Source: an uncultured Granulosicoccus sp. (GTDB lineage Bacteria > Pseudomonadota > Gammaproteobacteria > Granulosicoccales > Granulosicoccaceae). Taken from it: a DNA stretch of 64,000 nt. Of the stretch, positions 45,562-61,892 are shown piece by piece. Each line of letters begins with the position of its first letter. The first letter of the stretch is position 1. The stretch is taken from the NCBI GenBank assembly GCA_947495035.1, contig CANLXI010000008.1:1-64000 (forward strand), written 5' to 3'. The notes beneath the pieces are model-generated. The model was not told the DNA's origin. It searched no databases and saw only the letters and a list, made by a program, of their open reading frames with translations. The translations under genes and the position numbers were made by a program.

Positions 45562-45798
45562 CCAATAGAGGTATTCCTGTTTGGTACCCATTACCCATGG
45601 CTGCGATGCCTGCTGTAAGCCATCATCTGGGCGTCGGATGGCAATAGTCACGACCTGGCAGACGAAACAGGCAGGAAGCGAAAAACTGCAGCATTGACGC
45701 TGGAGTCGGGTTCGTTCTCCTGGGGTGTCTCTGACAGGGGCAATCCGGACCCGATCCCGTTCTTCGGCAACCAGTGCAAGGCAGTCATCAATTCGACC

Positions 45799-47094
45799 AT
45801 GAATCATCCCGAAAGGTCTTTCGCAAACCTGGCAAGCAGCATCGTGAACGGTCTGTCGAGTCTGTGCAGCATGTACAGACCAGGCGAAGTCCCCGGGTCT
45901 GCCGGTTTGACCTTGCTGGCCGCTGCATTTGTCGTGATGCCCGCTGTGCCGGTGCATGCACAGCAGAGCACTCTGGAAGTGGATATCCTTTATATCGAGC
46001 AACGTGTGGAACATCCACCGGTTCTGTCCAATCTGGTGAGCTGGCCGGAGGATGAGGGTGAACGCGGTGCCAGTCTTGCCATCAGCGACAATAACACCAC
46101 AGGGCGTTTTCTCGGTCAGAGCTACAGGCTCGACGAATTGATTTTCGAACCGGACGAGTCTCCGGCGACACGCAATGAACGTATTCGAGAGAAGCTGGCG
46201 GAGGGGGCGCGGCTGGTGGTGGCCAATCTGCCGGCCAGTGATCTGACTGTCATTGCCACTCTGCCGGAAGCGGCCGATGATCTGATATTCAATGCGCAGA
46301 GCATGGATGGTGTATTGCGTAACGAACAGTGCCAGCCCAATGTCCTGCACACGATTCCCTCCCGTGCCATGCTCAGCGATGCGCTGGCGCAGTATCTCTA
46401 CAAGCGCCAATGGGAGGAGGTGTTCCTGATAGAAGGCAACTCCGAGAAGGACAAGGCCTTTGCCGAATCACTGCGGCGCTCGATGACCAAGTTCAGCCTG
46501 GATATCGTCCAGAGCAGGACCTGGATCGAAGATGCCGACATGCGCCGCTCGGCATCCACCGAAGTGCCAGTGTTCACGCAGGCAAGGAGTTACGATGTCG
46601 TTGTCGTGGCCGATGAACAACAGGACTTCTCGCAGTACATTCTCTACAACACCTGGTTGCCGAGACCGGTTGCCGGTAGTGCAGGCTTGACCCCTGTGGT
46701 CTGGTCCCCTGTCATCGAACAATGGGGGGCTGCCCAGCTGCAATCCCGGTTTCGAAAGCTGGCCGAGCGTGACATGACATCCCGTGATTACAGCAACTGG
46801 GCTGCCGTACGCAGTATGGGAGAGGCGGTCACGCGTACCGGCTCTGCGCAGCCGGCAGATATCCTCGACTATGTACTCTCGGATGAATTCGAACTGGCCG
46901 GTTTCAAGGGAGCACCACTGAGTTATCGCCACTGGAATGGCCAGATGCGCCAGAGCGTGCAGCTGGTTCATCCCAAGGCGGTCGTTGCCACAGCTCCCAT
47001 CGAAGGGTTTCTGCACCCGGTAACCGAACTGGATACCCTGGGACTTGATGAACCGGAAAGCCTCTGCGAGGGTTTTCAGCGGACTCGACAGTGA
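45799..47094 (+). CDS. PQQ-system ABC-type substrate-binding protein
   Basis: This protein of about 431 residues has a signal peptide ending near PVHAQQ and the family pattern of binding proteins tied to PQQ-dependent alcohol oxidation. Recognisable parts are LEVDILYIEQRVEHPPVLSNL, GQSYRLDEL, ARLVVANLPASDL, DYSNWAAVRSMGEAVTRT and LSYRHWNGQMRQ. The expected ATPase and permease genes of this ABC system are not beside it: a beta-propeller gene follows and then the strand changes. ATG codons at 45799 and 45871 are both possible. Its role may be sensing or scavenging rather than transport; that is inference. Confidence 0.8.
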   Translation: MNHPERSFANLASSIVNGLSSLCSMYRPGEVPGSAGLTLLAAAFVVMPAVPVHAQQSTLEVDILYIEQRVEHPPVLSNLVSWPEDEGERGASLAISDNNTTGRFLGQSYRLDELIFEPDESPATRNERIREKLAEGARLVVANLPASDLTVIATLPEAADDLIFNAQSMDGVLRNEQCQPNVLHTIPSRAMLSDALAQYLYKRQWEEVFLIEGNSEKDKAFAESLRRSMTKFSLDIVQSRTWIEDADMRRSASTEVPVFTQARSYDVVVVADEQQDFSQYILYNTWLPRPVAGSAGLTPVVWSPVIEQWGAAQLQSRFRKLAERDMTSRDYSNWAAVRSMGEAVTRTGSAQPADILDYVLSDEFELAGFKGAPLSYRHWNGQMRQSVQLVHPKAVVATAPIEGFLHPVTELDTLGLDEPESLCEGFQRTRQ

Positions 47095-47112
47095 GCGGAA
47101 GGAAATAACTTG

Positions 47113-48180
47113 ATGAAAAAACCACGGGAAGAACGAACAATGCAGGAATCTCCAGTGTCCGGAAAGTCCGGCGGCGCGCTGATGGAAGGTCGCCCAGGAC
47201 TGTTGACACTGACTTCACTGGGTCTGCTGCTGAGTGTCGGCAGCGGTACCGTCAGCGCTCACTGGGCCTATGTCAGCAATGAAAAGGACGATACGGTATC
47301 GGTCATCGATACCGAAACCAATGAGGTGATCAAGACGATCGAAGTAGGCGAGCGGCCACGCGGCGTGACCCTGAGTCATGACTACACGCGCCTGTTCATC
47401 TGCGCCTCGGACTCGGACACGGTGCAAGTGATGAATCTGAGCGATGACTCGATCATGTTCGAATTGCCCAGTGGCGAGGATCCCGAGCAGTTCGCCCTGC
47501 ACCCGGATAATCGGCATCTGTACATCGCCAACGAAGATGATGCCATTGCAACGGTCGTCGATATCGAAACCCGTCAGGTCGTCTCGCAGATCGATGTGGG
47601 TGTCGAGCCGGAAGGCATGGCGGTGAGTCACGATGGTAAATATGCCATCGTCACCTCCGAAACGTCCAATATGGCGCACTGGATCGATACAGCGACGCAA
47701 ACCATCATTGCCAATACGCTCGTGGATCAACGTCCGCGGGACGCCGAGTTCACCCCTGACGACAAGGAGCTATGGGTGTCGTCGGAAATCGGCGGAACCG
47801 TCTCGGTCATCGATACGGAAAGCCGGGAGATCAAGCAGAAGATCAGCTTCGAGATTCCCGGTGTGACACGTGATCAGATTCAGCCGGTGGGTATGGAAAT
47901 CACTGATGATGGCAGCACGGCCTTCATCGCGCTGGGCCCGTCGAATCATGTGGCGGTAGTGGATCGGGAGAGTCTGGAGGTGACCGATTACATACTGGTG
48001 GGTCGACGGGTATGGCATATGGCATTGACACCGGAACAGGACAAGCTCTACACCACCAATGGCGTCTCGGGTGATGTCACGATGATAGATGTGGCAAGTC
48101 GCAAGGCGGTGAAGACCATCAAGGTGGGGCGATACCCATGGGGAGTGACCATCCTGCCCAAGGACAGCATCCCGCAGTAG
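47113..48180 (+). CDS. YVTN beta-propeller protein of PQQ catabolism
   Basis: This 355-residue exported protein has repeated blades such as WAYVSNEKDDTVSVIDTETN, RLFICASDSDTVQVMNL and HLYIANEDDAIATVVDIET, about seven in all, and an N-terminal membrane-spanning signal. It matches the PQQ-dependent-catabolism-associated beta-propeller family; its biochemical role is unknown. The start is the ATG at 47113, with AAGGA about nine bases upstream. It follows the binding-protein gene by 18 bp, a conserved pairing. Confidence 0.85.
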   Translation: MKKPREERTMQESPVSGKSGGALMEGRPGLLTLTSLGLLLSVGSGTVSAHWAYVSNEKDDTVSVIDTETNEVIKTIEVGERPRGVTLSHDYTRLFICASDSDTVQVMNLSDDSIMFELPSGEDPEQFALHPDNRHLYIANEDDAIATVVDIETRQVVSQIDVGVEPEGMAVSHDGKYAIVTSETSNMAHWIDTATQTIIANTLVDQRPRDAEFTPDDKELWVSSEIGGTVSVIDTESREIKQKISFEIPGVTRDQIQPVGMEITDDGSTAFIALGPSNHVAVVDRESLEVTDYILVGRRVWHMALTPEQDKLYTTNGVSGDVTMIDVASRKAVKTIKVGRYPWGVTILPKDSIPQ

Positions 48181-48224: not shown

Positions 48225-49682
48225 TTACAACTCCGGGAGTACCGTCGATTGCAGGCCTTGCTTTTTCTGTCCTTGTTCGCGTCGGAAGACGTTGATTTCC
48301 CGAACCCAGATCCAGACCGTCACGATCCCGGTCAACAGCAGCAGGACATGCCAGGGCAGTGATCGAGCGATGCCGCTGCCTTCCAGTCGCAACAGGAGTC
48401 TGTCGAGCACATTGCCCTCGAGAGCCAGGCTGGCCAGCAGGTCGGCGCGGTCGGGCAGGCCGACATTGATGCGCCGCGCCGGAATGATTGCCTGCCTGGC
48501 CGAATGGCTTGTCGTGTCGTACCAGGGCACGCGCACGGTATCCAGAAATACCGGAATGGGGCTCTGGGCAATCATGCGATAGTCGAAGACGGCGGTAGCC
48601 ACGATGTGCTCACCGACCAGACGTTGAGAGCGGGACTGCCCGATCAGAGTGGTTGTCAGGGCACGGCTTTCCGGCGGCATGATATCCGGCAGGTGATTGG
48701 CAAGGACATCTCGGGCATCAAGGGTGATGGTTCTGAGTATCTCATCGCCGGCGGTGAGCTCTCGAGGGTCGCTGGACCAGCTGTCATCGAGATTGACCGA
48801 ACTGGCCGGCAACCACCAGTGACTGCTGTCCACGGCCGGTTGAATCTGCAGGGTGTAGGGCGAGGACTGTCTGTCGAAGTCGGCTCGCTGCGTACGCGAT
48901 CGAATCACGGTACCAGTCCAGCCGACAGGGTCGAGGACCTGTCGACCGGAACGCTGCGCAAACAGGTGATAACGCCAGGCAGTCAGGCGCCATGACGTCT
49001 GGTCGGCCAAGGTGTCGATGGTTCTGCGTTCGACAAATTGCTCCAGTACATCAAAGCCGTCGAAATCGGGCAGCGATATCCGTTCATCGGCAATGGGATG
49101 TCGGTGTCTGAGTTCGATATCGGCAATGATGTGCTGGCCGACCAGCGCTTGTATTGTCGGTACTGGCACCGGATCGTCATCGTGTGCGCCGAGTTGTACC
49201 GAACCGTCAGCGGTGCGCAGGCTCACATTGATCTGCAGATCGTCGGCATCCGCCTGCCACTGCGACTCTGTCGGTGTCTGTACGTCGATGGTGATGATAT
49301 TCGACTGCACGAAATCCGTGACGCTGCCGGCCTGCAAGGGTCCGAGGATGAGTCGACCCTCGCGCCGCGGCAGAAGCTCCATCCTTCGTGATTTCATCTC
49401 GACAACCTGACCACTGACGACGGTGATGCGAGTACCCATGGTTTCGCGCAGCAGTTCCGTTTCCTGCAACAAGGGCGTGATATCCACAGGATCGTCCAGG
49501 CCGACCGCTTCGAGTTCGATGATGACACTGTCACCGAGATACACGGGCTCGAGGCTGCCAAGCAGGGTGATGCGCGGCGTGATTTCGGCGGCGCGGACAG
49601 GTCCGTTGAACAGGGCGAAGCACAGGCAGAGGCTGCAAAGGATGAAAAAGGCATGGACTGTCAGCCGAGTATGATGTTTCAT
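48225..49682 (-). CDS. BatD-like membrane-anchored protein
   Basis: This 485-residue protein has a signal peptide (FFILCSLCLCFALFNGPVRAAE) and beta-rich periplasmic domains. The first contains LGDSVIIELEAVGLDDPVDITPLL, and a later one contains VGQHIIADIELRH. A C-terminal membrane helix (WHVLLLLTGIVTVWIWV) precedes a short basic tail. The layout is that of BatD/oxygen-tolerance proteins. It is the last gene of a minus-strand run starting at 56619 and probably acts with the two VWA proteins and the TPR protein in maturing the quinoprotein dehydrogenase. Confidence 0.75.
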   Translation of the reverse strand: MKHHTRLTVHAFFILCSLCLCFALFNGPVRAAEITPRITLLGSLEPVYLGDSVIIELEAVGLDDPVDITPLLQETELLRETMGTRITVVSGQVVEMKSRRMELLPRREGRLILGPLQAGSVTDFVQSNIITIDVQTPTESQWQADADDLQINVSLRTADGSVQLGAHDDDPVPVPTIQALVGQHIIADIELRHRHPIADERISLPDFDGFDVLEQFVERRTIDTLADQTSWRLTAWRYHLFAQRSGRQVLDPVGWTGTVIRSRTQRADFDRQSSPYTLQIQPAVDSSHWWLPASSVNLDDSWSSDPRELTAGDEILRTITLDARDVLANHLPDIMPPESRALTTTLIGQSRSQRLVGEHIVATAVFDYRMIAQSPIPVFLDTVRVPWYDTTSHSARQAIIPARRINVGLPDRADLLASLALEGNVLDRLLLRLEGSGIARSLPWHVLLLLTGIVTVWIWVREINVFRREQGQKKQGLQSTVLPEL

Positions 49683-49740
49683 GAGGTGCTCGGTCCACCG
49701 CTTGTGCCAGGGGAAGTCGGTTTACGCCGTGAGGGTTGCA

Positions 49741-50613
49741 TCACCATGAGCTTCCACCTTCGGGAGCAGATTGTCCGGCCGCGTGACGGCGTCGTTGTTC
49801 CAGTCTGATGCGTCGCTGCAGGTACAGACTTGCATCGTGTTCGATCCGGTTCAACCACTGCGTGGTGGCCTGTTCCTTCTCCAGTTCGGTGCGACGCCCG
49901 GCGGCCTGAGATTCGCTGGTGGGTGAATCCGGTTCGGAACCACCGGAGGGTCTGCTGGCCGGCTGCGCATCGCTAGCTTCACCATCAAGGGCCCCGCTAC
50001 CGTCATCCTGAGCGGATGGCCTTTCCTGTTCGCTGGCCTGTGCCCCCTGGCCAGCCCGGGCCTGCGAGCGCTCGTTCATGGATAGATCGCCGGGCTCTTC
50101 CGGTTGTCCTTCAGGTGCGGAATCACCGGCCTTGCTCTGCTCTTCGCCGGTTTCGCCAATGCCGCGCTCCTGCCGATCATCCCGGGTGTCGAGGCGTCCG
50201 ATTTCCTCGCCTGAGGGCTGCCGGCCTCCTTGCTGCTGGTCCTGTGCTTTCGCCAGCAACTGACGCATCAGTTCGGCATTGTGCGAAGCATCCTCCAGCG
50301 AGGGATCCATCGACAAGGCGTGCTGATAGGCCTCCAGAGCCAGTTCGTGGTAACCCAGCTGGACGTAGCAGTTACCGAGATTGAATGCCGATACGGGGTC
50401 ACTGGCACGGATGAAGGCCTCGGCGGCGCGCCACCATTGCTCCGAGCGGTACAGGGCAACGCCTTTCCAGGCCGGGTCGGTGAATATCTCGCTCGCCTGA
50501 GCATACTCTCCGGCCTGAAACAGCCGGTGCGCCAGCAGATTGTCTTGATCGGCGAGCAGCTGCGTGGCGGGGTGGAGCAGCAGGCCGATCAGGAGTAGAG
50601 AGAACCGGCGCAT
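49741..50613 (-). CDS. BatC-like TPR protein
   Basis: This 290-residue exported protein has a signal peptide (residues about 1-21), TPR helices (about 26-112; SAFNLGNCYVQLGYHELALEAYQHALSMDP), a long acidic disordered region rich in Glu, Ser, Gly and Gln, and a C-terminal basic motif (LYLQRRIRLEQRRR) typical of BatC-like proteins. Its start overlaps the stop of the upstream VWA gene by one base. It is expected to scaffold the VWA proteins. Confidence 0.78.
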   Translation of the reverse strand: MRRFSLLLIGLLLHPATQLLADQDNLLAHRLFQAGEYAQASEIFTDPAWKGVALYRSEQWWRAAEAFIRASDPVSAFNLGNCYVQLGYHELALEAYQHALSMDPSLEDASHNAELMRQLLAKAQDQQQGGRQPSGEEIGRLDTRDDRQERGIGETGEEQSKAGDSAPEGQPEEPGDLSMNERSQARAGQGAQASEQERPSAQDDGSGALDGEASDAQPASRPSGGSEPDSPTSESQAAGRRTELEKEQATTQWLNRIEHDASLYLQRRIRLEQRRRHAAGQSAPEGGSSW

Positions 50614-51623
50614 CAGCGTGCAGACTCCCGGGAAAACAGCAGCAGCATTCCGGGAATGGCGAGCAGCAGAAGCCAGTGTGACTGATCACGCCACACCAGG
50701 CTCTTCAGACCATCGTGTGTCGAGGCGGTGGCCTGCTGATCGAGATCGAGTGTGGTGTAATCGATCACCCCGAAACTGTTGGCTCTGACCGCACGACCGT
50801 TGCCGGCATCGGCCAACGCCCGGGCTTGCTTCCACTGCACGCTGTTCGTGTCGCGGGCACCCGGTGTCTGGCTCCAGCTGTCGCCGACAGGTTCCGCAGG
50901 GGTCTGTGACCCTGTCGTGCCGGGCGGCGGTGAGGATGAACCGAATACCAGCATGTCGACGCGATGACCGGCATCGCCGAGAAAGCGCGCGGCAGCGATA
51001 CTGCCATTGCCGATACCGCCAGAATCGCCCAGTACGAGGATTCTGGCCTGGTGCAATCGGCTTTCTTCGACAACGGAGCTTGCCAATGACAGGGCGCGTG
51101 TCAGATTGGAACCGTCAAGCGGCACGATGCCGTATTCCAGCAGTGTTGCCTGTTCGTTGAAGACGGAGTGGTCGAAGGCCGGTGGTGCCACCAGAAAGGC
51201 ATCTCCGGCAAACAGGATCAACGCAATCGGCCGGGCCGCTGCCTGATGCGACAGTTCCGTCAGTGCTGCACGCATCGCTGCCAGACGTGAGGGCACGGTA
51301 TCGTTCAACGTCATGGAGCGTGAGACATCGGCCACAGCAATCCAGCCGATGCTGTGTCGCCAGGTGTCATCATCACTCTGGCGCTGGACGGGCTGACTCA
51401 GGCCTGCGGTGACGATCGATGCCAGTAGCAGCGGCAGATTGCAACGCGTGATGCGACGCCGGTCCGCTCCCAGATAGTCGAACAGGGCGGGTGACAGCAC
51501 GCTGCGCCAGTGACTGTGCGAATGCCTCAGGGGCCACAGCAGGGATCCGATCAACAGCAGTGCTGCGGCAACCAGGCAGCCAGGATACTGAATGCTCCAG
51601 TCATTCCATTGCCAGGCGCTCAT
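50613..51623 (-). CDS. VWA-domain membrane protein (BatB/MxaL-like)
   Basis: This 336-residue protein has two N-terminal membrane helices (about residues 17-32 and 62-75), a von Willebrand A domain with MIDAS motif D99-V-S101-R-S103, and a C-terminal helix (WLLLLAIPGMLLLF). The VWA domain would face the periplasm and bind a metal-bridged partner. It overlaps the next VWA gene by four bases and the TPR gene by one, a tightly coupled order matching MoxR-associated Bat and methylotroph mxaCKL modules. Confidence 0.82.
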   Translation of the reverse strand: MSAWQWNDWSIQYPGCLVAAALLLIGSLLWPLRHSHSHWRSVLSPALFDYLGADRRRITRCNLPLLLASIVTAGLSQPVQRQSDDDTWRHSIGWIAVADVSRSMTLNDTVPSRLAAMRAALTELSHQAAARPIALILFAGDAFLVAPPAFDHSVFNEQATLLEYGIVPLDGSNLTRALSLASSVVEESRLHQARILVLGDSGGIGNGSIAAARFLGDAGHRVDMLVFGSSSPPPGTTGSQTPAEPVGDSWSQTPGARDTNSVQWKQARALADAGNGRAVRANSFGVIDYTTLDLDQQATASTHDGLKSLVWRDQSHWLLLLAIPGMLLLFSRESAR

Positions 51624-52708
51624 CGGGAGAACCGTTGCCGGAGGAGACTGCCGGGCGTCCTGTGCAGGCGGCTTTGCCGGGCCGGAGTCTCACGTGCCCG
51701 CTCTCGGGATATCCAGCGGATTGGTCCTCCGGTTCGCTGGCGGATTCGCTCGAGCATCGTTGCGTCGAGTGCCAGCAACAGCAGGCAGAACAACAGCAGT
51801 ATCTGTGGCCACAGGCGCAGATCGTGGCGCAGGATCACTGGTGGGGCGGCCGCTTCCGCGCTCTCGAGTCTGTCGATGGCGCTGTAGACCTGCTGCAGAT
51901 CTGCCGTGCTGCTCGCCCGAAAGAACTCTCCGCCGGCCAGTTCGGCAATACGCGCGAGTGTCTCTTCATCCAGATCGGCAGATTGCGCCGTCTGGTATCC
52001 GCCGCGTTCTCCATCGATGCTTCCCAGGGCGATACTGTGGATACGGATGTTCAGCTCATTCGCCAGTTCGGCGGCGCTTTCCGGTTCCACCGAACCGGCA
52101 TTGTTGGTTCCGTCGGACAGCAATACAATGGCCTTCTGTTCGGCGGGATCTGCCTGCAGGGTCTTGATCGACAAGCCAATGGCGTCACCAATGGCGGTGG
52201 ATCTGCCAGCCATGCCGATACCGGCGCTGTCCAGTATATTGCTCAATGCGTGCAGATCGAACGTCAGTGGTGAGGCGATGAAGGCCTCCTTGCCATAGAG
52301 CACCAGACTCAAACGATCTCCACTGCGTCGAGCCATGAAGTCCGTGGCCACCTGCTTGACAATGCTCAGGCGGTCGCTGATCTCGCCGTCCAGTGAGAAG
52401 TCCTGTCTATCCATGCTGCCCGATACATCAACGGCCAGAGCGATGGCGCGGCCGCTGGCTGGCTGTATCACTGCATCAGTGGGTATCCAGGGTTGTGCTA
52501 TTGCACTCAGCAAGGCAATCCAGCAGATCCATGCCAGTCGTTGGCGAACATTCGCACCGCTGCGAGTCTGCATCGGCAGTGACTGCAAGGCTTCTTCCAT
52601 CGAGGGCGGAATGTCGATGGCGGTCAGCGCCGGTCTGGTACGCAGACGCTGCAACAGCCATGGCAGAGGTAGCAGCAGAAAGATCCATGGCCAGCTGAAG
52701 TGGATCAT
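51620..52708 (-). CDS. VWA-domain membrane protein (BatA/MxaC-like)
   Basis: This 362-residue protein begins MIHFSWPWIFLLLPLPWLLQR, as BatA-type proteins do. A second helix lies near residue 60-72, followed by a VWA domain with an intact MIDAS (D94-V-S96-G-S98) and later LLSDGTNNAG, then a C-terminal membrane helix. The ATG at 52708 is chosen by family N-terminus and by its 4-bp overlap with the DUF4381 gene; the frame is open further upstream. It is part of the MoxR-linked maturation module. Confidence 0.85.
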   Translation of the reverse strand: MIHFSWPWIFLLLPLPWLLQRLRTRPALTAIDIPPSMEEALQSLPMQTRSGANVRQRLAWICWIALLSAIAQPWIPTDAVIQPASGRAIALAVDVSGSMDRQDFSLDGEISDRLSIVKQVATDFMARRSGDRLSLVLYGKEAFIASPLTFDLHALSNILDSAGIGMAGRSTAIGDAIGLSIKTLQADPAEQKAIVLLSDGTNNAGSVEPESAAELANELNIRIHSIALGSIDGERGGYQTAQSADLDEETLARIAELAGGEFFRASSTADLQQVYSAIDRLESAEAAAPPVILRHDLRLWPQILLLFCLLLLALDATMLERIRQRTGGPIRWISRERARETPARQSRLHRTPGSLLRQRFSR

Positions 52709-53202
52709 GGCAGCCTCATGCTGGGCTGTGGTCGGGACGCATTGCGAGGTCTTGCCGGAAGTCGGCGAATCAGTCGCTCGATTCGAGTGCATGCTTCCTG
52801 CAACTCGGCGACACTCATCTGACCCGGCTTGTACAGCTCATCGCCGAACAGACGACCTTGCGCTTGCGTGAACCATTGCGTGTCAAAGGCATCGTCCAGC
52901 TCGGCCAGCCAACATCGGGCATTGCCGGAGATGGGGTATTGGCGATAGAGCAGAATCTGTCTGAGCAGTCTGGCCAGCGCCAGTGTCGCGACAGCCGGTT
53001 CCAGGAGGCGAGCCTGGCGCAGCTGAAACAGGGCATCACGACGCCATTGTTCGCGCATTCTGCGTCTCCGGTAATACAGGCCCAGCAATAGCATCAGCAG
53101 CATCATCAGATTGGCTGCGATCAGCCAGACGGAAGCAGCTTCGGGAGCCGGCGGCAGCTGGATATCGCGAAGCTGGCTGAGTATCTGTTCCGTTTCGTTC
53201 AT
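52705..53202 (-). CDS. DUF4381 membrane protein
   Basis: This 165-residue protein has one membrane helix (WLIAANLMMLLMLLLGLYY) after a short LRDIQLPPAPE segment typical of DUF4381, then a basic cytoplasmic helical domain (LARLLRQILLYRQYPISG). DUF4381 genes regularly sit between DUF58 and VWA genes in MoxR operons, as here. Function is unknown beyond the module. Confidence 0.82.
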   Translation of the reverse strand: MNETEQILSQLRDIQLPPAPEAASVWLIAANLMMLLMLLLGLYYRRRRMREQWRRDALFQLRQARLLEPAVATLALARLLRQILLYRQYPISGNARCWLAELDDAFDTQWFTQAQGRLFGDELYKPGQMSVAELQEACTRIERLIRRLPARPRNASRPQPSMRLP

Positions 53203-53304
53203 TCGTTCAGCGCCTCTTTCCGATTGAGGATGCTGTACTTGCCGCTCGCGAGTTGCCGGCTGACCATGGCTGCCTTGCAGGTCGCATCAGGCTTGGGTCG
53301 CCAT

Positions 53305-54429
53305 TCATGGTAAATGGCCGCTGTGCCGCAGAGCGGCCACGATTTCGTTCTTGCCCGTGCCGGAATGGTGCAGGGGAATCCGCAGAGCGGTAAAACGCTC
53401 CATCCTCCGTTGCTTCTGTTGTGACAGCCGTTGCTGCAGCTGCTTCGCGTGTCCGCGATCCAGTGTTGCACTGCGAGTGCGACGGTCATGCCAGTCACCG
53501 GAGCGATAACCATAGAGGCCTGTCGGCAAGCCCTGTTCGAGCATGCCATCGTCCATGTGAACGGCGGCCTGGCGATTCACTCGGGACAGGGTATTCATGG
53601 CGTCATCGAAGTGCTTGCCGAGATGATCGAAAGCGCTCAACCAGATCAGCGAACCGTGCAGTTGGCGTTGGGTACACAGCCAGCGGGCAACCTGGTCCAG
53701 TGTGATGTGCGAGCCTGTCTCATGCTGGTCGGAGGAGCCGGGGCTGATCAGGGCGTCAGGCGAGGACTCGGGTCGAGAGGGGCGGCTCGGCGGTTCGGCC
53801 GTGGTAGTTGCCTGGCCATGCCTTTGCGCATGACCGCCCGATATCGGCAGGTCGCTGCCCGCCGGGGTGGGCGCGGCATTGTCGCAGGACTTCGCACGCC
53901 GGTACTGTGCCTGTAAAGCCAGAAAGCGCCTTGCCAGCAAGGCACAGGCATCAATGGCAGCTCCATCGCCGATGCGATTGTCGCTGACGGTGAGGCCGCT
54001 GTCGCTGACAGCGATGACGCACAGCCGGCTGCCGCTTTCGATGGACTGCCACAAAAGCCGTGCTGTGAACCGGCAGGCTTGTACCGAACGCAGTATTGTC
54101 GTACCGGTGTACATGGTGCGCCGCATGTCCGTCACCAGCGTCACTCGGTGTTCTCGCTCTTCACGGTACAGTCTTGTGTAAAGCGTATTGCTGCGGGCAC
54201 TGGCTTTCCAGTCGACATGACGAAGTTCGTCCCCGGGGCTGTAAGGACGCAGATCATCGAAGTCGCTGCCATGACCGCGCCGCCTGCCGCGAAAGCTGCC
54301 TGCCCATCGTCCACCACCCTCGGGTTGCTGCAAGGTGCCTTGATGTACCGCGTGGCGTTCGTTCAGCAGGGAGTCGATGCTGAGCGTGATGGCCGAATCT
54401 GCCGACTTGTCCGAATCGGGCAGGCTCAT
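53305..54429 (-). CDS. DUF58 protein (MxaS-like)
   Basis: This 374-residue cytosolic protein has the DUF58 signature RPYSPGDELRHVDWKASAR (residues 61-79) and a VWA-like core (HRVTLVTDMRRTMYTGT). Its partner is the MoxR AAA+ ATPase encoded 82 bp upstream. The central part contains a Ser/Pro-rich insertion (about residues 205-240). In methylotrophs the equivalent MxaS is needed for active methanol dehydrogenase, probably at metal loading. Confidence 0.83.
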   Translation of the reverse strand: MSLPDSDKSADSAITLSIDSLLNERHAVHQGTLQQPEGGGRWAGSFRGRRRGHGSDFDDLRPYSPGDELRHVDWKASARSNTLYTRLYREEREHRVTLVTDMRRTMYTGTTILRSVQACRFTARLLWQSIESGSRLCVIAVSDSGLTVSDNRIGDGAAIDACALLARRFLALQAQYRRAKSCDNAAPTPAGSDLPISGGHAQRHGQATTTAEPPSRPSRPESSPDALISPGSSDQHETGSHITLDQVARWLCTQRQLHGSLIWLSAFDHLGKHFDDAMNTLSRVNRQAAVHMDDGMLEQGLPTGLYGYRSGDWHDRRTRSATLDRGHAKQLQQRLSQQKQRRMERFTALRIPLHHSGTGKNEIVAALRHSGHLP

Positions 54430-54511
54430 CTCAGTTCACGCCGATGACAAGGCAGGAGGCAGGTACTTCGTGTCGTGGGTTGGCAGGCGGCGGTGACATG
54501 ACAGGCAGGTA

Positions 54512-55507
54512 TCAGAGCCGCGGGGTGGATGTCAGCAGATCCTGCACAACCTGACGGGCGGTGACGCCGGCTGCACGAGCACGGTAGTCCAGTGAGAGGC
54601 GACCGCATAATATGTCCGGTGCCAGTTCGACAACGTCGTCAACCGTGACGAATTCCCGACCGGCGAGCCAGGCTCTGGCGCGTGAGGCAACGGCCAGATT
54701 GATCGAGGCGCGAGGGCTGGCTGCCTGGGAGATGTTCATGGCGGATTGGCCGCCGGCGCCGAGCCCGCGTGTTGCTCCAACCAGGCGCACGATATAGTCA
54801 CGTACGGCTTCGGACAGGAATACCTGTGGTACGCAGCGCCTGGCGCGCAGAATCAGATCGGCATTGCCAATGGCCGTGGGTTCGGTGGGATTGTCCAGTG
54901 GATCGGTCTCGCTCAGCACCCGGTCGAGAATCCTGCGTTCCTGCTCAAGACCGGGCAAGTCGATATTGACGAAGAACATGAAACGATCAAGCTGCGCCTC
55001 CGGTAGTGGATAGGTTCCTTCATGTTCGATCGGGTTCTGCGTTGCCGCGACGAGAAACGGTTCCCTGAGTTTACGCGTGACCCCATTGGTGCTGATCTGA
55101 TGTTCGCCCATGGCTTCCAGCAATGCACTTTGCACCTTGGGCGGTGCCCGGTTGACTTCGTCGACCAATACGATGTGGTTGAACAGGGGGCCGGCATTGA
55201 ACCGGAACTCTGCACCGTGTTGCTGGAAGATGTCGGTGCCCGTGATATCGGCCGGCAACAGATCCGGCGTGGCCTGAACGCGGACGAAGCTCATGTCCAG
55301 CAATCGGGCAAAGCGATTGATGCTGCGGGTCTTGGCGACACCGGGTGGGCCTTCGATCAGCAGATGTCCCCCCGTGAGCAGGGCAATCATCAGCCTGTCT
55401 ATCAGACTCTCGAGCCCGACCAGTTGATCAGCCAGAGTGACCCCGAGCTGTTGCATGGCGGTCAGGGTGCCATCCAGATCGGTGTGCCTGTCGGAATCTG
55501 CATTCAT
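54512..55507 (-). CDS. MoxR-family AAA+ ATPase (MxaR-like)
   Basis: This 331-residue cytosolic chaperone-type ATPase has Walker A GPPGVAKT (residues 53-60), Walker B HIVLVDEVNRAP with D116-E117, and sensor motif AATQNPIEHEGTYPLPEAQLDRF. MoxR ATPases assemble or metallate partner enzymes together with VWA and DUF58 proteins. Its start overlaps the upstream CxxxCW gene by four bases, tying the module physically to the PQQ system rather than being a stand-alone stress operon. Confidence 0.93.
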   Translation of the reverse strand: MNADSDRHTDLDGTLTAMQQLGVTLADQLVGLESLIDRLMIALLTGGHLLIEGPPGVAKTRSINRFARLLDMSFVRVQATPDLLPADITGTDIFQQHGAEFRFNAGPLFNHIVLVDEVNRAPPKVQSALLEAMGEHQISTNGVTRKLREPFLVAATQNPIEHEGTYPLPEAQLDRFMFFVNIDLPGLEQERRILDRVLSETDPLDNPTEPTAIGNADLILRARRCVPQVFLSEAVRDYIVRLVGATRGLGAGGQSAMNISQAASPRASINLAVASRARAWLAGREFVTVDDVVELAPDILCGRLSLDYRARAAGVTARQVVQDLLTSTPRL

Positions 55508-56619
55508 GGGCGGATGAACAGCGAGGGGAACCGGCGGCTTCGGGCATCCTCTGTGGTGAATTCATTCAGGTCTATCGGGTGGCTGTAGGGCGGCGGTGGG
55601 TCAGCCAGCACGTTGAGATCTCCCTGCAGCAATGTACCTCGCAGGCTGCCATCGTCCTGCCAGGCAAGCTGATAGTAGACGCCGTTCCAGAAATCGATAC
55701 CGAAGCTGCCTGGTGATTTCCAGATGAACAGCAGCTGGTATTCCAGCTCGGTCAGGTCGTCCGCGGAGATTCTGCCTTGCAATTTGTACGGATAGGGTAG
55801 GTGACAGAACCATTCTGCAGGATCGGTCAGACAGCGAAACGGTCGCATGGACAGAAACTGATCCACCAGACGTTCACTGTCCAGTTCCACCGCAAAGGTG
55901 CTGAAGCCTGCATCGGAGGGGGTGAAACGGACCGTGCCGAGCGCAAGCTCTGCGCCTTGCCGGTCAATCAGGTGGATAGTTGCGGAATCGGGAAAGAACT
56001 GCTGATCCGCCTCCTCGACGGAGGCTGCTTCTTCCGGTACGGCAGGGGTGGTGTCGTCGAAGAAGTTCACGGGCTGAATCCGTGTCAGCTCTCTTCCGTC
56101 CTCCAGCCAGCCGTCTGTGCCGAGCGGGTACCAGTACACGGCGCTGTAACCCCAGACAATGGCGCGGCGTGCCGCATTCCAGCTTTGCCAGCAGTCTGCG
56201 TTGCAGAAAAAGACCAATGGTGCATCCAGGCGGTTCCGCGACAGTCTTGCAATATTTCTCTTGAAGTAGTCTTCTGCTTCAAGGCTCAGGCTGCCGCGTC
56301 CAACCTCGGGTAACCAGATCGAACCGGGTATGGACTGGCGTATTTCCGATGTCACCCAGTGTCCGTCCAGTGGATCGGGGCCAAGCCCCTTGGGGGGATG
56401 GACATCGATCAGCACAGCCGTGCCCTGCCGCTGCATGTCGGCCAGCTGCTCGGTGGCCAGTGTCAGGCCGCCTGGGATGTCTGCCGGTACCGGTGCGCGA
56501 TATCGTTCCATGCGCAAGCCGGTTTCCGGGTCGACGTCATAGGCATCGAGAGACCGTTCCGCGCCGGTTGCAGGGTTGGCAAACAGCAAGACGATGATCA
56601 ACAGGGTTCTATCCAGCAT
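55504..56619 (-). CDS. PQQ-associated CxxxCW rhodanese-like protein with extra C-terminal domain
   Basis: This 371-residue exported protein has a signal peptide (residues about 1-20) and a rhodanese-like domain with C139-N-A-D-C143-W144 in FFCNADCWQSWNAARRAI, the hallmark of CxxxCW proteins found with PQQ dehydrogenases. Residues about 200-371 form an additional domain I do not recognise, with two Cys (FRCLTDPAEWFC) and a FWNGVYYQLAWQDDGSLRG-type beta region. It heads the MoxR/VWA operon. A thiol-redox or metal-handling role during dehydrogenase maturation is inferred. Confidence 0.78.
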   Translation of the reverse strand: MLDRTLLIIVLLFANPATGAERSLDAYDVDPETGLRMERYRAPVPADIPGGLTLATEQLADMQRQGTAVLIDVHPPKGLGPDPLDGHWVTSEIRQSIPGSIWLPEVGRGSLSLEAEDYFKRNIARLSRNRLDAPLVFFCNADCWQSWNAARRAIVWGYSAVYWYPLGTDGWLEDGRELTRIQPVNFFDDTTPAVPEEAASVEEADQQFFPDSATIHLIDRQGAELALGTVRFTPSDAGFSTFAVELDSERLVDQFLSMRPFRCLTDPAEWFCHLPYPYKLQGRISADDLTELEYQLLFIWKSPGSFGIDFWNGVYYQLAWQDDGSLRGTLLQGDLNVLADPPPPYSHPIDLNEFTTEDARSRRFPSLFIRP

Positions 56620-56660
56620 GCGCCATAGTATGCGCTGTGCCAGAGGCAGAGACAGTGGTA

Positions 56661-56740
56661 CAAAAGTCCAACGTCACGGGCAGGGGGCGGGCCTGGCATC
56701 GGCAAGCGGGTCTTGCGATGGTTCCAAAAGTACCATTTGG
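56661..56740. promoter_or_regulatory. Divergent promoter with repeated CAAAAGT motifs
   Basis: The 183-bp gap between the CxxxCW and cytochrome c550 genes contains CAAAAGTCCA (56661-56670) and CAAAAGTACC (56725-56734), the latter within the inverted repeat CCAAA-N7-TTTGG (56724-56740). A related sequence precedes the alcohol dehydrogenase gene. These are candidate binding sites for a shared activator. Confidence 0.4.
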
Positions 56741-56802
56741 GATGGTCTCGCTTTGGGCTACCCTTGCCACCTTCTTCACAGGTAGACGGGTTGTTGGTTA
56801 CG

Positions 56803-57249
56803 ATGAAAAAGCGATTGTTGACAGGTGCGGTTTCCGTACTGGTGTTATCTCAGTTCATGCTCGTGAAAACGGGCCTGGGTCATGGTGATGTGCAGCCTCA
56901 GGGCGTGGACACCGAAGGTCTGGAAGCTCTGCCCGAGGAGATCGCACTGGAGAATCCCTATCGTGGCATGGGCGGGGAGCAGTATGAGCTGGCGAAGACG
57001 ATAGGGTCGTCTGCCTACAACACCAACTGTGCCCGCTGCCATGGGCTGGAAGCGATTTCCGGCGGCATAGCCCCGGACCTGCGTCTGCTGGAAGACGGGG
57101 AGTTCGGCGATGAGTGGTTCATGGAAAGAGTGCGCAAGGGCTACTCGCAGAATGGTGCCTACAAGATGCCGCCGTTCGAGAACATTCTGAGCCAGGAGGC
57201 GATGTGGGCCATACGCTCGTATACTGAAACCCAGCCTCGTCCGGAATAG
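56803..57249 (+). CDS. pedF: Cytochrome c550, PedF-like
   Basis: This 148-residue periplasmic cytochrome c has a signal peptide (about residues 1-26), a single heme site C76-A-R-C79-H80, and probable axial M122 in YKMPPFENIL. It matches the c550 family that accepts electrons from quinoprotein alcohol dehydrogenases. The ATG at 56803 gives a normal signal peptide; the frame is open upstream. It starts the plus-strand run that ends with the dehydrogenase. Confidence 0.88.
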   Translation: MKKRLLTGAVSVLVLSQFMLVKTGLGHGDVQPQGVDTEGLEALPEEIALENPYRGMGGEQYELAKTIGSSAYNTNCARCHGLEAISGGIAPDLRLLEDGEFGDEWFMERVRKGYSQNGAYKMPPFENILSQEAMWAIRSYTETQPRPE

Positions 57250-57255: not shown

Positions 57256-58128
57256 ATGGGAATGGTCGGTTGCAGTAAGCATCTGCGACATCTTGCATTA
57301 TCTAGCCTGCTTGCAGTCGGGTTGTGTTCGCCCGCGCTGCAGGCACGGCCAGTGGATGATGTCGTGGACAGCGGCAAGCTGGTGGTGTTTGCCTACAGCG
57401 ACTATGCCCCCTATTCCTGGGAGGACGATTCGGGAGAGGCGCGGGGTATCGATGTGGATATCGGGCGCCGCTTCGCGGAGAGTCTGGGAGTGGATGTCGA
57501 GTTCCTGATTCGGGGTGCGGACGAAAACCTGGACGACGATCTGCGCGTCAACATCTGGAAAGGTGACCTGATCTACGGCAAGTATGCCGATGTCATGATG
57601 CATGTGCCCTATGACCGCGAAGTGGATGTGCGCAATGAACTGGCGGTACTGACGGCACCGTACTTTCAGGAGCAGATGGCGCTGATCTTCAACCGTGCCA
57701 TGCATCCCGCTGTCGAAACCTTCGGGCGTTTCGTCTCCAGCCCCATTGCGGTGGAAGTGGATACGGCGGGAGACTTCTTTCTGTCCAATGCCTTTCGTGG
57801 TCAGTTGCTGCAGAGCATTCGGCGTGGTCGCACCTTCAGGGATGCACAGGATCTGTATACCAGTACCGAGGTTGGAGCGCTGCTCGGTTCACGGGCGCAG
57901 ATGGAATGGGTGGCGCAGGAATCCCCCGATATCGATTCCGAAATCGTCCAGCCACCCATGCCGGGAATTGTCAGAACCGGGTGGCCCATCGGCATTGCGG
58001 TCAAGCACGACAGTCGCGATCTGGGTTATGCGCTGGGGGATGTTCTGACCGAGATGATCGAATCGGGCGACATGAAGAAGCTCTATGCCAGCTATGGGGT
58101 AGAGTGGTTGCCAGCAGAATTGCCATGA
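57256..58128 (+). CDS. MxaJ-like quinoprotein-associated binding protein
   Basis: This 290-residue periplasmic protein of the type-3 solute-binding fold has a signal peptide (LSSLLAVGLCSPALQA), GKLVVFAYSDYAPYSWED, DVDIGRRFAESLGV and GKYADVMMHVPYDREVDVRNEL. It resembles MxaJ/XoxJ, which are required for methanol dehydrogenase assembly or activation rather than transport. It begins seven bases after the cytochrome gene and overlaps the next gene by four bases. Confidence 0.82.
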   Translation: MGMVGCSKHLRHLALSSLLAVGLCSPALQARPVDDVVDSGKLVVFAYSDYAPYSWEDDSGEARGIDVDIGRRFAESLGVDVEFLIRGADENLDDDLRVNIWKGDLIYGKYADVMMHVPYDREVDVRNELAVLTAPYFQEQMALIFNRAMHPAVETFGRFVSSPIAVEVDTAGDFFLSNAFRGQLLQSIRRGRTFRDAQDLYTSTEVGALLGSRAQMEWVAQESPDIDSEIVQPPMPGIVRTGWPIGIAVKHDSRDLGYALGDVLTEMIESGDMKKLYASYGVEWLPAELP

Positions 58129-58931
58129 GGCGCGTACGCATGAAACAGATTGCAAGAGCCATGGTTGCATCATGCATGATATTGATCAGTAGTTCACTGA
58201 TGGCAAGGCAGTTGCCACCGGATCCTCTGAACTCCGTCATGTGGGAATCCATGGCTGAACGTTTCATGCCCGACGGCGAAATCGTTTTTGATGAGCGTGT
58301 GAAGCTCATGACACCGCTGGCAGCCGAGAACCAGTTCCATGTGCCGGTGACTGTGGATGCCACGGCTCTGGAAGGCGTGGTGGAAATCGTGGCCGTGGCC
58401 GATCTGAACCCGATTCCGCTGATCATGAGTCTGCGTCCTGCCGATGCGCTGCCCTTCATCGGTTTCCGGCTCAAATTGCAGCAGACGTCCCCGATTCATG
58501 TAGGTGTTCGCACGGCTGATGGCGTCTGGCATGTGGCCGGGGCCATCGTCGATGCGGCCGGTGGCGGCTGTACTGCGCCCGCAGCGGCACACGGTAACAG
58601 CAACTGGATGCAGACACTGGGTGAGACACGCGCTCATGCGGGCCGCGATGATGACAGCACGGCACGCATGACACTGCGCATGCGTCATCCCATGGATACC
58701 GGACTGGCTGTCGGCATTCCGGCGTTCTACCTCAATGAACTGGCGGTCAGGGACGATGAGGGCAATATCGTTGCCGAACTGGATCTGTACGAACCTGTCA
58801 GCGAGAATCCGACGCTGACGCTCAAACCGAAGGTCGGACCTCGAGCGTCGGTTCTGCATGTGTCCTCCAGAGACACCGAAGGCAATACCTTCCGTTTCCC
58901 GCTGGAAGTACCCGCCGCCACCGAACTGTGA
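58125..58931 (+). CDS. Quinoprotein-associated SoxYZ-like carrier
   Basis: This 268-residue exported protein fuses a SoxY-like domain and a SoxZ-like domain. The SoxY-type carrier Cys is C149 in AAGGGCTAP, here internal instead of C-terminal, and the SoxZ-like part (MTLRMRHPMDTGL, IPAFYLNELAV) follows. Such fusions occur with PQQ dehydrogenase genes; the carried group is unknown. The ATG at 58125 overlaps the previous stop (ATGA); 58140 is an alternative. Confidence 0.82.
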   Translation: MRRVRMKQIARAMVASCMILISSSLMARQLPPDPLNSVMWESMAERFMPDGEIVFDERVKLMTPLAAENQFHVPVTVDATALEGVVEIVAVADLNPIPLIMSLRPADALPFIGFRLKLQQTSPIHVGVRTADGVWHVAGAIVDAAGGGCTAPAAAHGNSNWMQTLGETRAHAGRDDDSTARMTLRMRHPMDTGLAVGIPAFYLNELAVRDDEGNIVAELDLYEPVSENPTLTLKPKVGPRASVLHVSSRDTEGNTFRFPLEVPAATEL

Positions 58932-59950
58932 AGGTGCTGCCCATGACGATCAAACCATCCCGCCAGGGCAGGGCAAGCGCTGCACCGATCTCGAAGGCAC
59001 GTCGGCAGGTCATGCAATGGTTTGCAGGTGGATGCGCATGTGCCGTCTGTGGTTCTGCCAATGCGCGATTACTGGATTTCGATCTGATGGCCGTGGAGGT
59101 GGCATCCCGTACCTGGGCGGTACTGGGACGCACCGAATACTTCAACATGGACAACGGCGGCAATATCGTCAACGTGGCATTCGTGGAAGTGCCGGACGGG
59201 GTCGTTGTCATCGATACTGGCCCTTCGAAACGATATGGGGATGCCCTGCGAAGACTGATCGAAAGAACCGTGCCGGGCAAACCGATACTGCGTGTCTACA
59301 ACACGCATCATCATCCGGATCATTTTCTGGGCAACCAGTCCTTTGATGCATCACTCATTGCCGCACCTCGCCAGGTCATCGACAACATTGCCCTGGAGGG
59401 TAATGGCTTTGCCGACAACATGTACCGCTTGCTGGGAGACTGGATGCGGGGTACCAATGCGGTGGCTCCCACGGTTGCTCTGCAAGCCGACCAGGAGGAT
59501 GTGGGAGGGCGGCGGTTCTCGCTGTATTATCTTTCGGGTCATACCAGCAGTGACCTTGTCATCAGGGATGATGACACCGGTGTGTTGTTCGCAGGCGATC
59601 TCGCCTTTCTGTATCGTGCGCCGACGACTCCGCATGCGGATATCGACAGCTGGCGAGAATCGTTGCAGACGCTTGCCGGCATCGACAAGTCATTGCTCAT
59701 ACCGGGTCACGGGCCCAGTGATGACAAGGATGAATCACTGGCGCAGACAGGTGATTACATCGACTGGCTGCATGGCAGTATCAGTGATTCGGTCATGCGG
59801 GGTCTCACCATGAACGAGGCCATGGCACTGCCCATACCCGCGCGTTTCGAAGGTCTGGGAGTGGTGCGCAGCGAGTACGAACGATCCGTCGTGCATCTGT
59901 ATCCCTCCCTTGAAGATGCACTCTATCCCGTTATAGAGATCAGCCAGTAG
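58928..59950 (+). CDS. Quinoprotein relay zinc metallohydrolase (MBL fold)
   Basis: This 340-residue metallo-beta-lactamase-fold protein has the metal motif THHHPDHFLGN (H127, H129, D131, H132), then YLSGHTSSD, FAGDLAF and IPGHGPS. It is a SoxH-related family linked to PQQ systems. The N-terminus carries QWFAGGCACAVCG, a possible membrane or lipoprotein-like signal with unusual Cys residues. GTG at 58928 overlaps the carrier gene stop by four bases; ATG 58943 is an alternative. It probably acts on the SoxYZ-like carrier. Confidence 0.85.
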   Translation: MKVLPMTIKPSRQGRASAAPISKARRQVMQWFAGGCACAVCGSANARLLDFDLMAVEVASRTWAVLGRTEYFNMDNGGNIVNVAFVEVPDGVVVIDTGPSKRYGDALRRLIERTVPGKPILRVYNTHHHPDHFLGNQSFDASLIAAPRQVIDNIALEGNGFADNMYRLLGDWMRGTNAVAPTVALQADQEDVGGRRFSLYYLSGHTSSDLVIRDDDTGVLFAGDLAFLYRAPTTPHADIDSWRESLQTLAGIDKSLLIPGHGPSDDKDESLAQTGDYIDWLHGSISDSVMRGLTMNEAMALPIPARFEGLGVVRSEYERSVVHLYPSLEDALYPVIEISQ

Positions 59951-60107: not shown

Positions 60108-61892
60108 ATGAAGCGAAGACCAACCATGCTGGCTGTTGCCGGTACCCTGGCCATCAGTGTTGCAGGGTTCTGCAATACGGTAGCCGCAGCGGAGGTGTCC
60201 ATCGAGGACATCATGAACGATCAGGCCAGCGGCGAGGATATCGTCTCCTATGGTCTCGGGCCGCGTGGACAACGCTACAGTCCGCTGGCGACACTGAACA
60301 AGGACAACATCAAGAACCTCTATCCCGTCTGGTCGTTTTCGTTTGGCGGAGAAAAGCAGCGTGGACAGGAGTCACAGCCTCTGATCAAGGACGGTGTCAT
60401 GTATGTCACCGGGTCCTACAGTCGCATGTGGGCCATCGATATTGCAACGGGTGAGGAACTGTGGCAATACGATGCCCGATTGCCCGAAGGCATCCTGCCC
60501 TGCTGTGATGTCGTCAACCGCGGAGCTGCCATCCTGGGAGACAAGGTCTTCTTCGGAACGCTTGATGCGAAGATCGTGGCGCTGGACGCCAAGACCGGCA
60601 AGGTCATCTGGCGCAAGACGCTGGGCGACTACGAAGCGGGCTATTCGTATACGGCAGCACCTCTGATCGTGCCGACCAAGGCACATGGACCGTTGATACT
60701 GACCGGCAATTCCGGTGGTGAATTCGGTATCGTCGGCCAGGTGGATGCCAGGAACCCCGATACCGGTGAGCTGGTCTGGTCCCGACCTACCATCGAAGGG
60801 CACATGGGAACACTCAATGGTGAAGAATCCACCATGACCGGGGTGAAGAACGAATCCTGGGCCGGGGACATGTGGCAGAACGGTGGTGGCGCAACCTGGC
60901 TGGGCGGTACTTACGATCCGGACACAGGCCTGGCATATTTCGGTACCGGTAATCCGGCGCCCTGGAACAGCTATCTGCGTCCGGGAGACAACAAGTGGAC
61001 CTCTGCACGTATAGCGATCGATCCGGAGAATGGCGAAATCGTCTGGGGCTTTCAGTCAACGCCTCACGATGGCTGGGATTTCGATGGCGTCAACGAGTTC
61101 ATTTCCTTCGACATGGAAAAGGATGGTGAGCTCATCAAGGCCGGCGCCACTGCCGATCGCAACGGCTTCTTCTACGTGCTGGACAGAACCAGTGGTGAAT
61201 TCATTTCAGCCACACCATTCGTGCAGGATATCACCTGGGCCAAGGGTATCGACGAGAACGGTGTTCCCTTGTTCGACCCGGAAAACCGTCCGGGAAATCC
61301 GTCGGAAAGTGCTGATGGCAAGAAAGGCAAGTCCATCTTCGCCGTGCCCAGTTTTCTCGGTGGCAAGAACTGGATGCCGATGGCCTATTCGCAGAAGACC
61401 AGCAACTTCTACATTCCATCCAATGAGTGGGGCATGGATATCTGGAACGAACCGGTCACCTACAAGAAAGGTGCAGCCTATCTGGGGGCCGGATTCACGA
61501 TCAAGCCGATATTCGATGATTACATCGGTTCTCTGAAGGCCATGGATCCGGTCAGTGGCGAGATCAAGTGGGAATACAAGAACAAGGCACCACTGTGGGG
61601 CGGCGTATTGACCACGGCCGGTGGTCTGGTCTTCACCGGTACACCGGAAGGTTATCTGAAGGCCTTTGATGACGAGACCGGCGAGGAGCTCTGGAAGTTC
61701 CAGACCGGCACCGGCATCGTCTCCTCGCCAATTACCTGGGAACAGGACGGTGAGCAGTATGTTGCGATCGTGACCGGCTGGGGTGGTGCTGTGCCTCTGT
61801 GGGGCGGCGAGGTTGCCAAGGTGGTCAGTTACCTGAACCAGGGTGGATCCGTCTGGGTATTCAAGGTGCCGGAAGGTCTGGCGTCACGTTAA
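60108..61892 (+). CDS. PQQ-dependent alcohol dehydrogenase, lanthanide-type active site
   Basis: This 594-residue periplasmic quinoprotein has a signal peptide (about residues 1-28) and an eight-bladed propeller with tryptophan-docking repeats. It has the vicinal disulfide C132-C133 ([10 protein letters not shown]), metal ligands in GGEFG (E205) and GTGNPAPW (N282), and the catalytic Asp in [11 protein letters not shown] (D324). D326, two residues on, marks lanthanide-dependent enzymes (XoxF, PedH); calcium enzymes have Ala or Ser there. The overall pattern ([17 protein letters not shown]) is closer to ethanol-type ExaA/PedH than to methanol dehydrogenases. AGGAG precedes the ATG. Cytochrome c550 encoded in the same run is the likely electron acceptor. 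Confidence 0.92.

Follow-up and report, generated by a model that had tools for sequence, protein, structure and literature searches.

A Bat-type MoxR/VWA gene set linked to a PedH-like alcohol dehydrogenase suggests an aid to enzyme assembly in Granulosicoccaceae

Introduction

To our knowledge, little is known about the route by which lanthanides and pyrroloquinoline quinone (PQQ) reach periplasmic dehydrogenases, and we know of no client of the Bat (Bacteroides aerotolerance) operons. Among the closest described systems, MoxR/VWA pairs remodel client enzymes and NorQD drives metal insertion via a VWA partner with a metal ion-dependent adhesion site (MIDAS), as reported in the available portions of PMC13036017, while copies of mxaRSACKL are known in strains without mxaFJGI (available portions of PMC4109929). 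The locus compared here with these systems lies in a window of 64,000 nucleotides from an uncultured Granulosicoccus sp. (contig CANLXI010000008.1, positions 1 to 64,000), in which eight same-strand genes, CXXCW-MoxR-DUF58-DUF4381-VWA1-VWA2-TPR-BatD, occupy positions 48225-56619 near a PQQ alcohol dehydrogenase (ADH). Judged from its sequence, this gene set suggests an aid in assembling a lanthanide-type ADH in many Granulosicoccaceae and a few alphaproteobacteria. The reading put forward, held with about as much confidence as doubt, is that the module would be a dedicated Bat (MoxR/VWA) paralogue fixed to a PedH-like ADH with a D-x-D metal site and would assemble this enzyme via metal/PQQ loading.

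No published link of a Bat-type or MoxR module to PedH or ExaF was found, subscription literature lying outside the search; this includes the available text of PMC12997753, where MoxR occurs twice, one occurrence being a reference title. MoxR is absent from the available text of PMC11996626.

Results

Linkage of the module to CXXCW and to a PQQ alcohol dehydrogenase

In 95 relatives, 41 CXXCW matches were obtained (20 fetched as loci in the main batch and the others in further batches), 28 of which, corresponding to 28 genomes, have DUF4381 at a distance of 2.4-3.3 kb. All 28 genomes with a CXXCW-linked module encode a PQQ-ADH, which stands on the CXXCW contig, 4-19 kb away, in 23 of them, the remaining 5 having it on a different contig; in two genomes the linkage of ADH and CXXCW holds even over 17-19 kb. 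The family genomes searched were 48 Granulosicoccaceae, many of them fragmentary. Besides the 28 with the module within 3.3 kb of CXXCW, four more have it cut by contig ends: G341 and G345 have MoxR next to CXXCW on a short contig, and G299 and G323 have a module truncated at the contig end, with the ADH cluster on a different contig. A PQQ-ADH was found in 38 of the 48, six of which (G325, G328, G329, G334, G337 and G343) have no linked module, and none of the 10 family genomes without a PQQ-ADH gave a CXXCW match. Under independence of the genomes, which does not hold, the chance that all 28 module genomes fall among the 38 ADH genomes of the 48 would be 3e-5.

The search was extended to named CXXCW loci, some of which are the same regions as loci of the main batch. 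MoxR adjoins CXXCW in 31 among the best 80 of 86 such loci, namely 28 from Granulosicoccaceae/Chromatiales and three from alphaproteobacteria: a Phyllobacteriaceae metagenome-assembled genome (MAG; L167), a Rhodobiaceae MAG (L168) and Zhengella mangrovi X9-2-2 (L171). In all three alphaproteobacterial cassettes a D-x-D ADH adjoins the metallohydrolase gene. Since the scoring profiles were built from Granulosicoccaceae loci, scores favour that family. A chance neighbourhood was rejected on the linkage counts and on this recurrence in alphaproteobacteria.

Co-inheritance of the module with the enzyme

The ADH tree (40 rows) places the 15 module-bearing ADHs, 12 from Granulosicoccaceae and three from alphaproteobacteria, in one group (Shimodaira-Hasegawa-like approximate likelihood ratio support 94), so that the presence of the module amounts to one change of state on this tree. 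On the side of the module, the MoxR proteins of the cassettes group together with that of a further locus, L110, with support of 99/94 in one tree and 100/96 in another (both starred), and the same set including L110 is recovered with VWA1 (91, not starred) and DUF58 (97, starred); the trees of VWA1 and DUF58, like that of ADH, are of the quick kind, with no bootstrap. L110 stands beside the alphaproteobacterial modules in the MoxR tree, and because it falls among them the cassette-bearing modules alone are not one clade for MoxR, VWA1 or DUF58, although their forced monophyly is not rejected (approximately unbiased test, p-AU 0.373, 0.168 and 0.104 respectively). In Zhengella's order, module-type BatD was found in 2 of 397 genomes, both with the cassette: Zhengella itself, whose own BatD was in the query (687 bits), and the Rhodobiaceae MAG (479 bits), the next best match being at 120 bits.

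These trees and counts support co-inheritance of the module with this ADH across two classes. The first-pass annotation had tied the module to an alcohol rather than a methanol dehydrogenase, and this holds well with the co-inheritance and with the linkage to a PedH-like ADH.

The module is of Bat type and not of Mxa type

The same annotation had called the module Mxa-like and had asked for a comparison of its MoxR with MxaR and generic Bat proteins, and here a different answer was obtained: as far as trees and profiles tell, the module is Bat-type, not Mxa-type. In the MoxR trees, the Mxa MoxRs, including the window genome's own XoxF-linked copy, form one clade (100/100, starred) that a very long branch sets apart; the window MoxR falls outside it, far from MxaR, among the Bat MoxRs as a distinct subclade. 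A forced grouping of module and Mxa MoxRs nonetheless survives the topology test (p-AU 0.124), which leaves the exact root side of the MoxR tree open. The VWA1 and DUF58 trees were built without Mxa rows and therefore show the subclade only.

Profile comparisons were made with Mxa profiles from eight MxaI-bearing clusters plus XoxF-linked sets. The shared architecture claimed at first pass stood for four kinds of protein, with match probabilities of 100 for MoxR-MxaR, 99 for VWA1-MxaC, 94 for VWA1-MxaL, 94 for TPR-MxaK and 83 for DUF58-MxaS, but not for the remainder, DUF4381-MxaA reaching only 16 and BatD giving no match to the Mxa profiles. The module thus has an MxaK-like TPR protein and a separate BatD, its score on the side of MxaA is low, and its MoxR does not group with MxaR of the MxaI-bearing clusters. 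Linkage to mxaF or mxaI is lacking, no MxaI match was obtained in the window genome, and the neighbouring ADH is PedH-like. On these trees and profiles the Mxa-like identity was rejected, even though the forced grouping was not.

By contrast, MoxR, DUF58, DUF4381, two VWA proteins, TPR and BatD are present in Bat order, and MoxR, VWA1 and DUF58 group with Bat proteins. On contig C7, the window genome also carries a generic Bat operon (L055), with the same genes in the same order, and the comparison supports the view that the module is a paralogue of that operon.

A real Mxa set is found elsewhere in this genome, on contig C49 (L052:5861-20000 and L053:1-2115), where a XoxF-type D-x-D enzyme (989 bits to 6oc5) has MxaD, R, S, A, C, K and L as neighbours. 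Two quinoproteins of the window genome are thus accompanied by MoxR/VWA sets that differ in lineage. An Mxa set was seen in three of eight family CXXCW/XoxF-type loci scanned, the genome's own, L079 (R-S-A-C-K-L) and L127 (C, K, L and D in the stretch examined); L084 has MxaD alone, and no Mxa genes were found in the stretches scanned of L072, L076, L077 and L091. The pairing of Mxa-type genes with XoxF is not without precedent.

The neighbouring dehydrogenase

The ADH gene (60108-61892, forward strand; TIGR03075, 779 bits) encodes a protein that ranks closest in the PDB to 6zcv/6zcw (841 bits), followed by ExaA 1flg (708 bits) and by XoxF/MxaF (at most 363 bits). The PDB titles of 6zcv/6zcw read quinoprotein ethanol dehydrogenase, and we take these entries to be PedH of P. 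putida. The metal-site motif HDGWDFDG (W-D-F-D) carries D-x-D, where MxaF has D-Y-A and ExaA D-F-S; D-x-D is the mark of lanthanide-type enzymes. The protein also has adjacent Cys-Cys. From its nearness to the PedH structures and from D-x-D, the enzyme is PedH-like and probably of lanthanide type, so that the lanthanide-type site proposed at first pass was retained and the assignment to an ExaA/PedH-like enzyme moved to the PedH side.

D-x-D is present in all 15 module-bearing ADHs of the ADH tree. The window ADH is 83% identical to the Zhengella ADH and 61% identical to the module-less PedH-like enzymes of L108 and L066. As a separate observation, the PedH-like ADHs of L112, L182, L183, L187, L202, L213 and L222 have PREGWDYDG/PREGWDFDG instead of the PHDGWD-type catalytic-loop motif.

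Gene content of the locus

The head-to-tail run from CXXCW to BatD with short overlaps that was noted at first pass was confirmed: four of the seven junctions overlap (CXXCW/MoxR by 4 bp, DUF4381/VWA1 by 4, VWA1/VWA2 by 4 and VWA2/TPR by 1), the other three being gaps of 82, 102 and 58 bp, as computed with the VWA1 start shifted to an internal ATG at 52708. All eight genes lie on the reverse strand. The first, CXXCW (55504-56619; TIGR03865, 180 bits against a cut-off of 128), encodes a rhodanese-like protein whose Pfam Rhodanese match is confined to residues 56-173 and which has an extra C-terminal domain of about 180 residues without a match in the Pfam search. This domain (window 55504-56050) is conserved and fused to CXXCW in many Granulosicoccaceae, is encoded by a separate gene in L168:10492-11040, L166:2677-3234 and L163:873-1508, and was not found in some relatives examined.

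The Bat-type MoxR AAA+ ATPase follows (54512-55507; AAA_3, 1.6e-58, and trees), then the DUF58 protein (53305-54429; PF01882, 3.9e-15, and tree), the DUF4381 protein with one hydrophobic segment (52705-53202; PF14316, 1.1e-14, and hydropathy), the BatA-like VWA protein 1 (51620-52708, from the internal ATG; MIDAS DVSGS), the BatB-like VWA protein 2 (50613-51623; family match and MIDAS DVSRS), the BatC-like TPR protein (49741-50613; family match) and a BatD-like protein with hydrophobic segments at its N- and C-terminus (48225-49682; PF13584, 7e-08, and hydropathy). All seven score above their own Pfam cut-off, BatD by a narrow margin (33.4 against 24.1). The Walker A and B motifs are intact in all 23 clade MoxRs and the MIDAS motif DxSxS in 21 of 22 VWA1 and 22 of 22 VWA2 proteins; crude hydropathy places hydrophobic segments in DUF4381, VWA1, VWA2 and BatD.

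The CXXCW operon is divergent from PedF-SBP-SoxYZ-MBL-ADH (SBP, substrate-binding protein; MBL, metallohydrolase), with 93 bp between them (56620-56712, by coordinates). On the forward strand are encoded cytochrome c-550 PedF (56713-57249; TIGR04494, 176 bits against 122), a family-3 periplasmic binding protein in the PedG position (57256-58128; PF00497, and comparison with PedG from the available portions of PMC12997753), the quinoprotein-associated SoxYZ-like carrier (58110-58931; TIGR04557, 197 bits against 140), whose start is uncertain with the longest open reading frame beginning at 57906, and the quinoprotein relay zinc metallohydrolase 1 (58928-59950; TIGR04558, 378 bits against 300). 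Beyond the other end of the module, also on the forward strand, are a PQQ_ABC_bind substrate-binding protein (45694-47094; TIGR03863, 477 bits against 414) and a PQQ-associated beta-propeller protein (47110-48180; TIGR03866, 507 bits against 287), and the window genome encodes PqqE as well (522 bits against 381). A NosP-like protein on the reverse strand (61993-63381; NF041558, 367 bits, below the cut-off of 450) is a possible extra member of the cassette; such a gene adjoins the ADH also in L081 (the L148 region), L085, L089, L159, L161 and the alphaproteobacterial L242.

In L078 (10972-13542), L088, L075, L086, L168 and L171, ABC transporter genes lie between CXXCW and PedF or YVTN. They are not in the window, and L078 has an NMT1-like binding protein; that the transported substrate is a metal complex would be a guess. 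The genome was scored 6.89% contaminated, and an assembly error or contamination was considered and rejected since the same cluster occurs in G321, G310 and G322. The G321 copy (L085) lies on a single 7.78 Mb contig, and the named loci nearest to the window cluster are from Granulosicoccus assemblies.

Related Bat operons near other dehydrogenases

The closest Bat operons outside the cassette clade lie near quinoproteins in part of the cases. In G143 (L236) one is found 2.4 kb from xoxF and divergent from it, in G271 (L245) one lies about 2.4 kb from, and divergent from, an ADH frame truncated by the contig end and presumed to be XoxF, and in the Rhodobiaceae MAG one belongs to the XoxF cluster, some 10 kb away from XoxF itself (L269/L270). 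G143 and G271 are both MxaI-bearing genomes. For the sister-clade members G028, G151 and G095, no ADH was found in the stretches examined, though their genomes carry PQQ-ADHs. In G342 (L271:4322-13491), a third Bat set immediately precedes the gene of a third PQQ dehydrogenase (ADH3) and runs in the same direction; it is split over contigs in G328 (L272, L273) and partial in the Rhodobiaceae MAG (L268). ADH3 keeps D-x-D and lacks adjacent Cys-Cys. The MoxRs of all three Bat sets and of L110 form one clade (100/99, starred; 20 rows), in which L268 and L272 have no row, being without MoxR in the stretch examined.

Because sister Bat operons adjoin XoxF or the third D-x-D enzyme in some genomes, quinoproteins of three types may have found their partners in a single Bat subfamily. 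A wider and rather doubtful proposal is that this subfamily would consist of quinoprotein assembly ATPases, with three branches for PedH-like enzymes, XoxF and the third D-x-D enzyme without Cys-Cys, taking for periplasmic lanthanide-PQQ loading the place that MxaRSACKL has for calcium. If this were true, the Bat operon, long puzzling, would gain a defined client.

Discussion

Proposed function of the module

According to the proposed mechanism, a MoxR hexamer and DUF58 would act at the cytoplasmic face, and the two membrane VWA proteins with their MIDAS, together with DUF4381, TPR and BatD, would relay the remodelling, driven by ATP, to the periplasm. The machine would there open the apo-dehydrogenase, either by itself or in complex with SBP/PedF as partners, for the loading of metal and PQQ, and CXXCW, SoxYZ and MBL would handle the sulfur/disulfide side of the same assembly. 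The intact Walker A/B and MIDAS DxSxS motifs agree with a MoxR/VWA metal-insertion machine, and together with the hydrophobic segments they make an ATP-driven trans-membrane machine acting on the periplasmic ADH a fitting description. We infer the client (the ADH), the topology and the step (metal/PQQ loading) alike; help in metal or PQQ loading is the most likely role that the sequences point to.

Several observations weigh against a fixed partnership of module and enzyme. Among the best 80 of the named CXXCW loci, 49 have no MoxR in the stretch examined, some flanks being short; such module-less loci include Neomegalonema, Ruegeria, Mameliella, Roseibium, Labrys and Rhodoblastus. None of the 14 fetched CXXCW clusters from outside the family, mostly XoxF clusters, has the module, and a check of L166 for a hidden one found none in its 13 kb. 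On the ADH tree, 17 PedH-like rows from several lineages are without a module beside them, and D-x-D is present in 16 of these 17 related enzymes. D-x-D therefore follows the enzyme family and not the module, and, with regard to the co-occurrence that the first-pass annotation had asked to be checked, D-x-D taken alone does not predict the module. L110, a member of the module clade, has no PQQ families in 20 kb (flanks of 7.6 and 5.8 kb, with a chemoreceptor, an amino-acid binding protein, an HDIG-domain protein, an aminotransferase, an RmlD-like reductase and a glycosyltransferase), and the PedH-like ADH of its genome (L108) has no module beside it. Finally, only 5 of 53 BatD-like matches in Zhengella's order, the Zhengella cassette among these 5, have a PQQ-ADH at 25 kb or less, which makes tight linkage the exception there; 41 of the 45 genomes of that order with a BatD-like match also have a PQQ-ADH (E<=1e-100), the base rate being outside this comparison. 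Consequently, given the module-less PedH-like enzymes and the unlinked L110, the module cannot be a general need of lanthanide-type enzymes; perhaps this enzyme clade requires it, or it acts as an enhancer.

Other explanations

The main rival client is the set of sulfur-relay proteins. The machine would then serve the relay of CXXCW, SoxYZ and MBL, for instance in forming the disulfide of the adjacent Cys or protecting PQQ from sulfur compounds, and not metal loading. The operon indeed begins with CXXCW, which shares 4 bp with MoxR, the window ADH has the Cys-Cys, and the available portions of PMC12997753 associate the three proteins with adjacent-Cys ADHs and offer disulfide formation, cofactor stabilization or PQQ protection as their role. 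However, ADH3, the partner of a related Bat operon, is without Cys-Cys, no CXXCW was found in the stretches examined at the ADH3 loci, and many CXXCW/SoxYZ/MBL clusters are without the module, so that this explanation is regarded as unlikely. A similarly low probability is given to a stress-type Bat machine that would guard the envelope from aldehydes or oxidants made by the enzyme, linked to it for co-regulation and with no client in the ADH cluster. The Bat-type content and tree position of the module and the generic Bat paralogue in the same genome speak for such a machine, whereas the splitting of the module clade by dehydrogenase type and the absence of the module from most PQQ clusters examined speak against it.

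Neutral adjacency, with an ordinary Bat operon hitchhiking in Granulosicoccaceae, appears the least probable of these explanations. The first-pass annotation had raised the possibility that the module occurs as often without PQQ genes nearby; this is true of Bat operons generally, 81 of 109 DUF4381 matches in the 95 relatives not being near CXXCW, and not of this clade, in which, among the members with wide flanks, only the unlinked L110 is without PQQ genes. Against hitchhiking stand the same cassette in three alphaproteobacteria, the single change on the ADH tree and the linkage kept in the two genomes with the most distant ADH. Moreover, six genes flanking the cassette in the window are mostly not kept across 32 loci (EamA, Mo-oxidoreductase, DUF1501 and DUF1800 in none, YHS-like in 3 and NosP in 7, 6 of them distinct), a count in which some regions were entered twice and flanks were short. 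Assembly of the PedH-like ADH by the module is thus the reading retained. A Bat subfamily tied to D-x-D dehydrogenases makes both the question of lanthanide/PQQ entry and that of the Bat client open to a deletion experiment; its carriers include at least one strain with a name, Zhengella mangrovi X9-2-2, as well as a member of the window's genus whose genome is one contig.

Comparison with known systems

The P. putida ped cluster, as described in the available portions of PMC12997753, resembles the locus in having PedF, PedG, SoxYZ-like, SoxH-like and rhodanese proteins with PedH, and differs in that no module is found in the PedH-like locus L066, from a genome of the same class. NorQ/NorD likewise combine a MoxR AAA+ protein with a VWA/MIDAS partner and a reported metal insertion (available portions of PMC13036017), but they are two proteins acting with non-haem iron on NO reductase, while the window has eight genes, several with membrane segments. 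The MxaRSACKL(D) set of methanol dehydrogenase shares with the module MoxR, DUF58, two VWA proteins, a TPR-like protein and a PQQ-dehydrogenase partner, from which the module is set apart by a BatD without Mxa counterpart, by the low DUF4381-MxaA probability and by a MoxR on the Bat side. Relative to the generic Bat operon of the same genome, to which it is 47% identical in MoxR and 27% in BatD, the module stands in its own clade, with CXXCW before it and the PQQ-ADH beside it.

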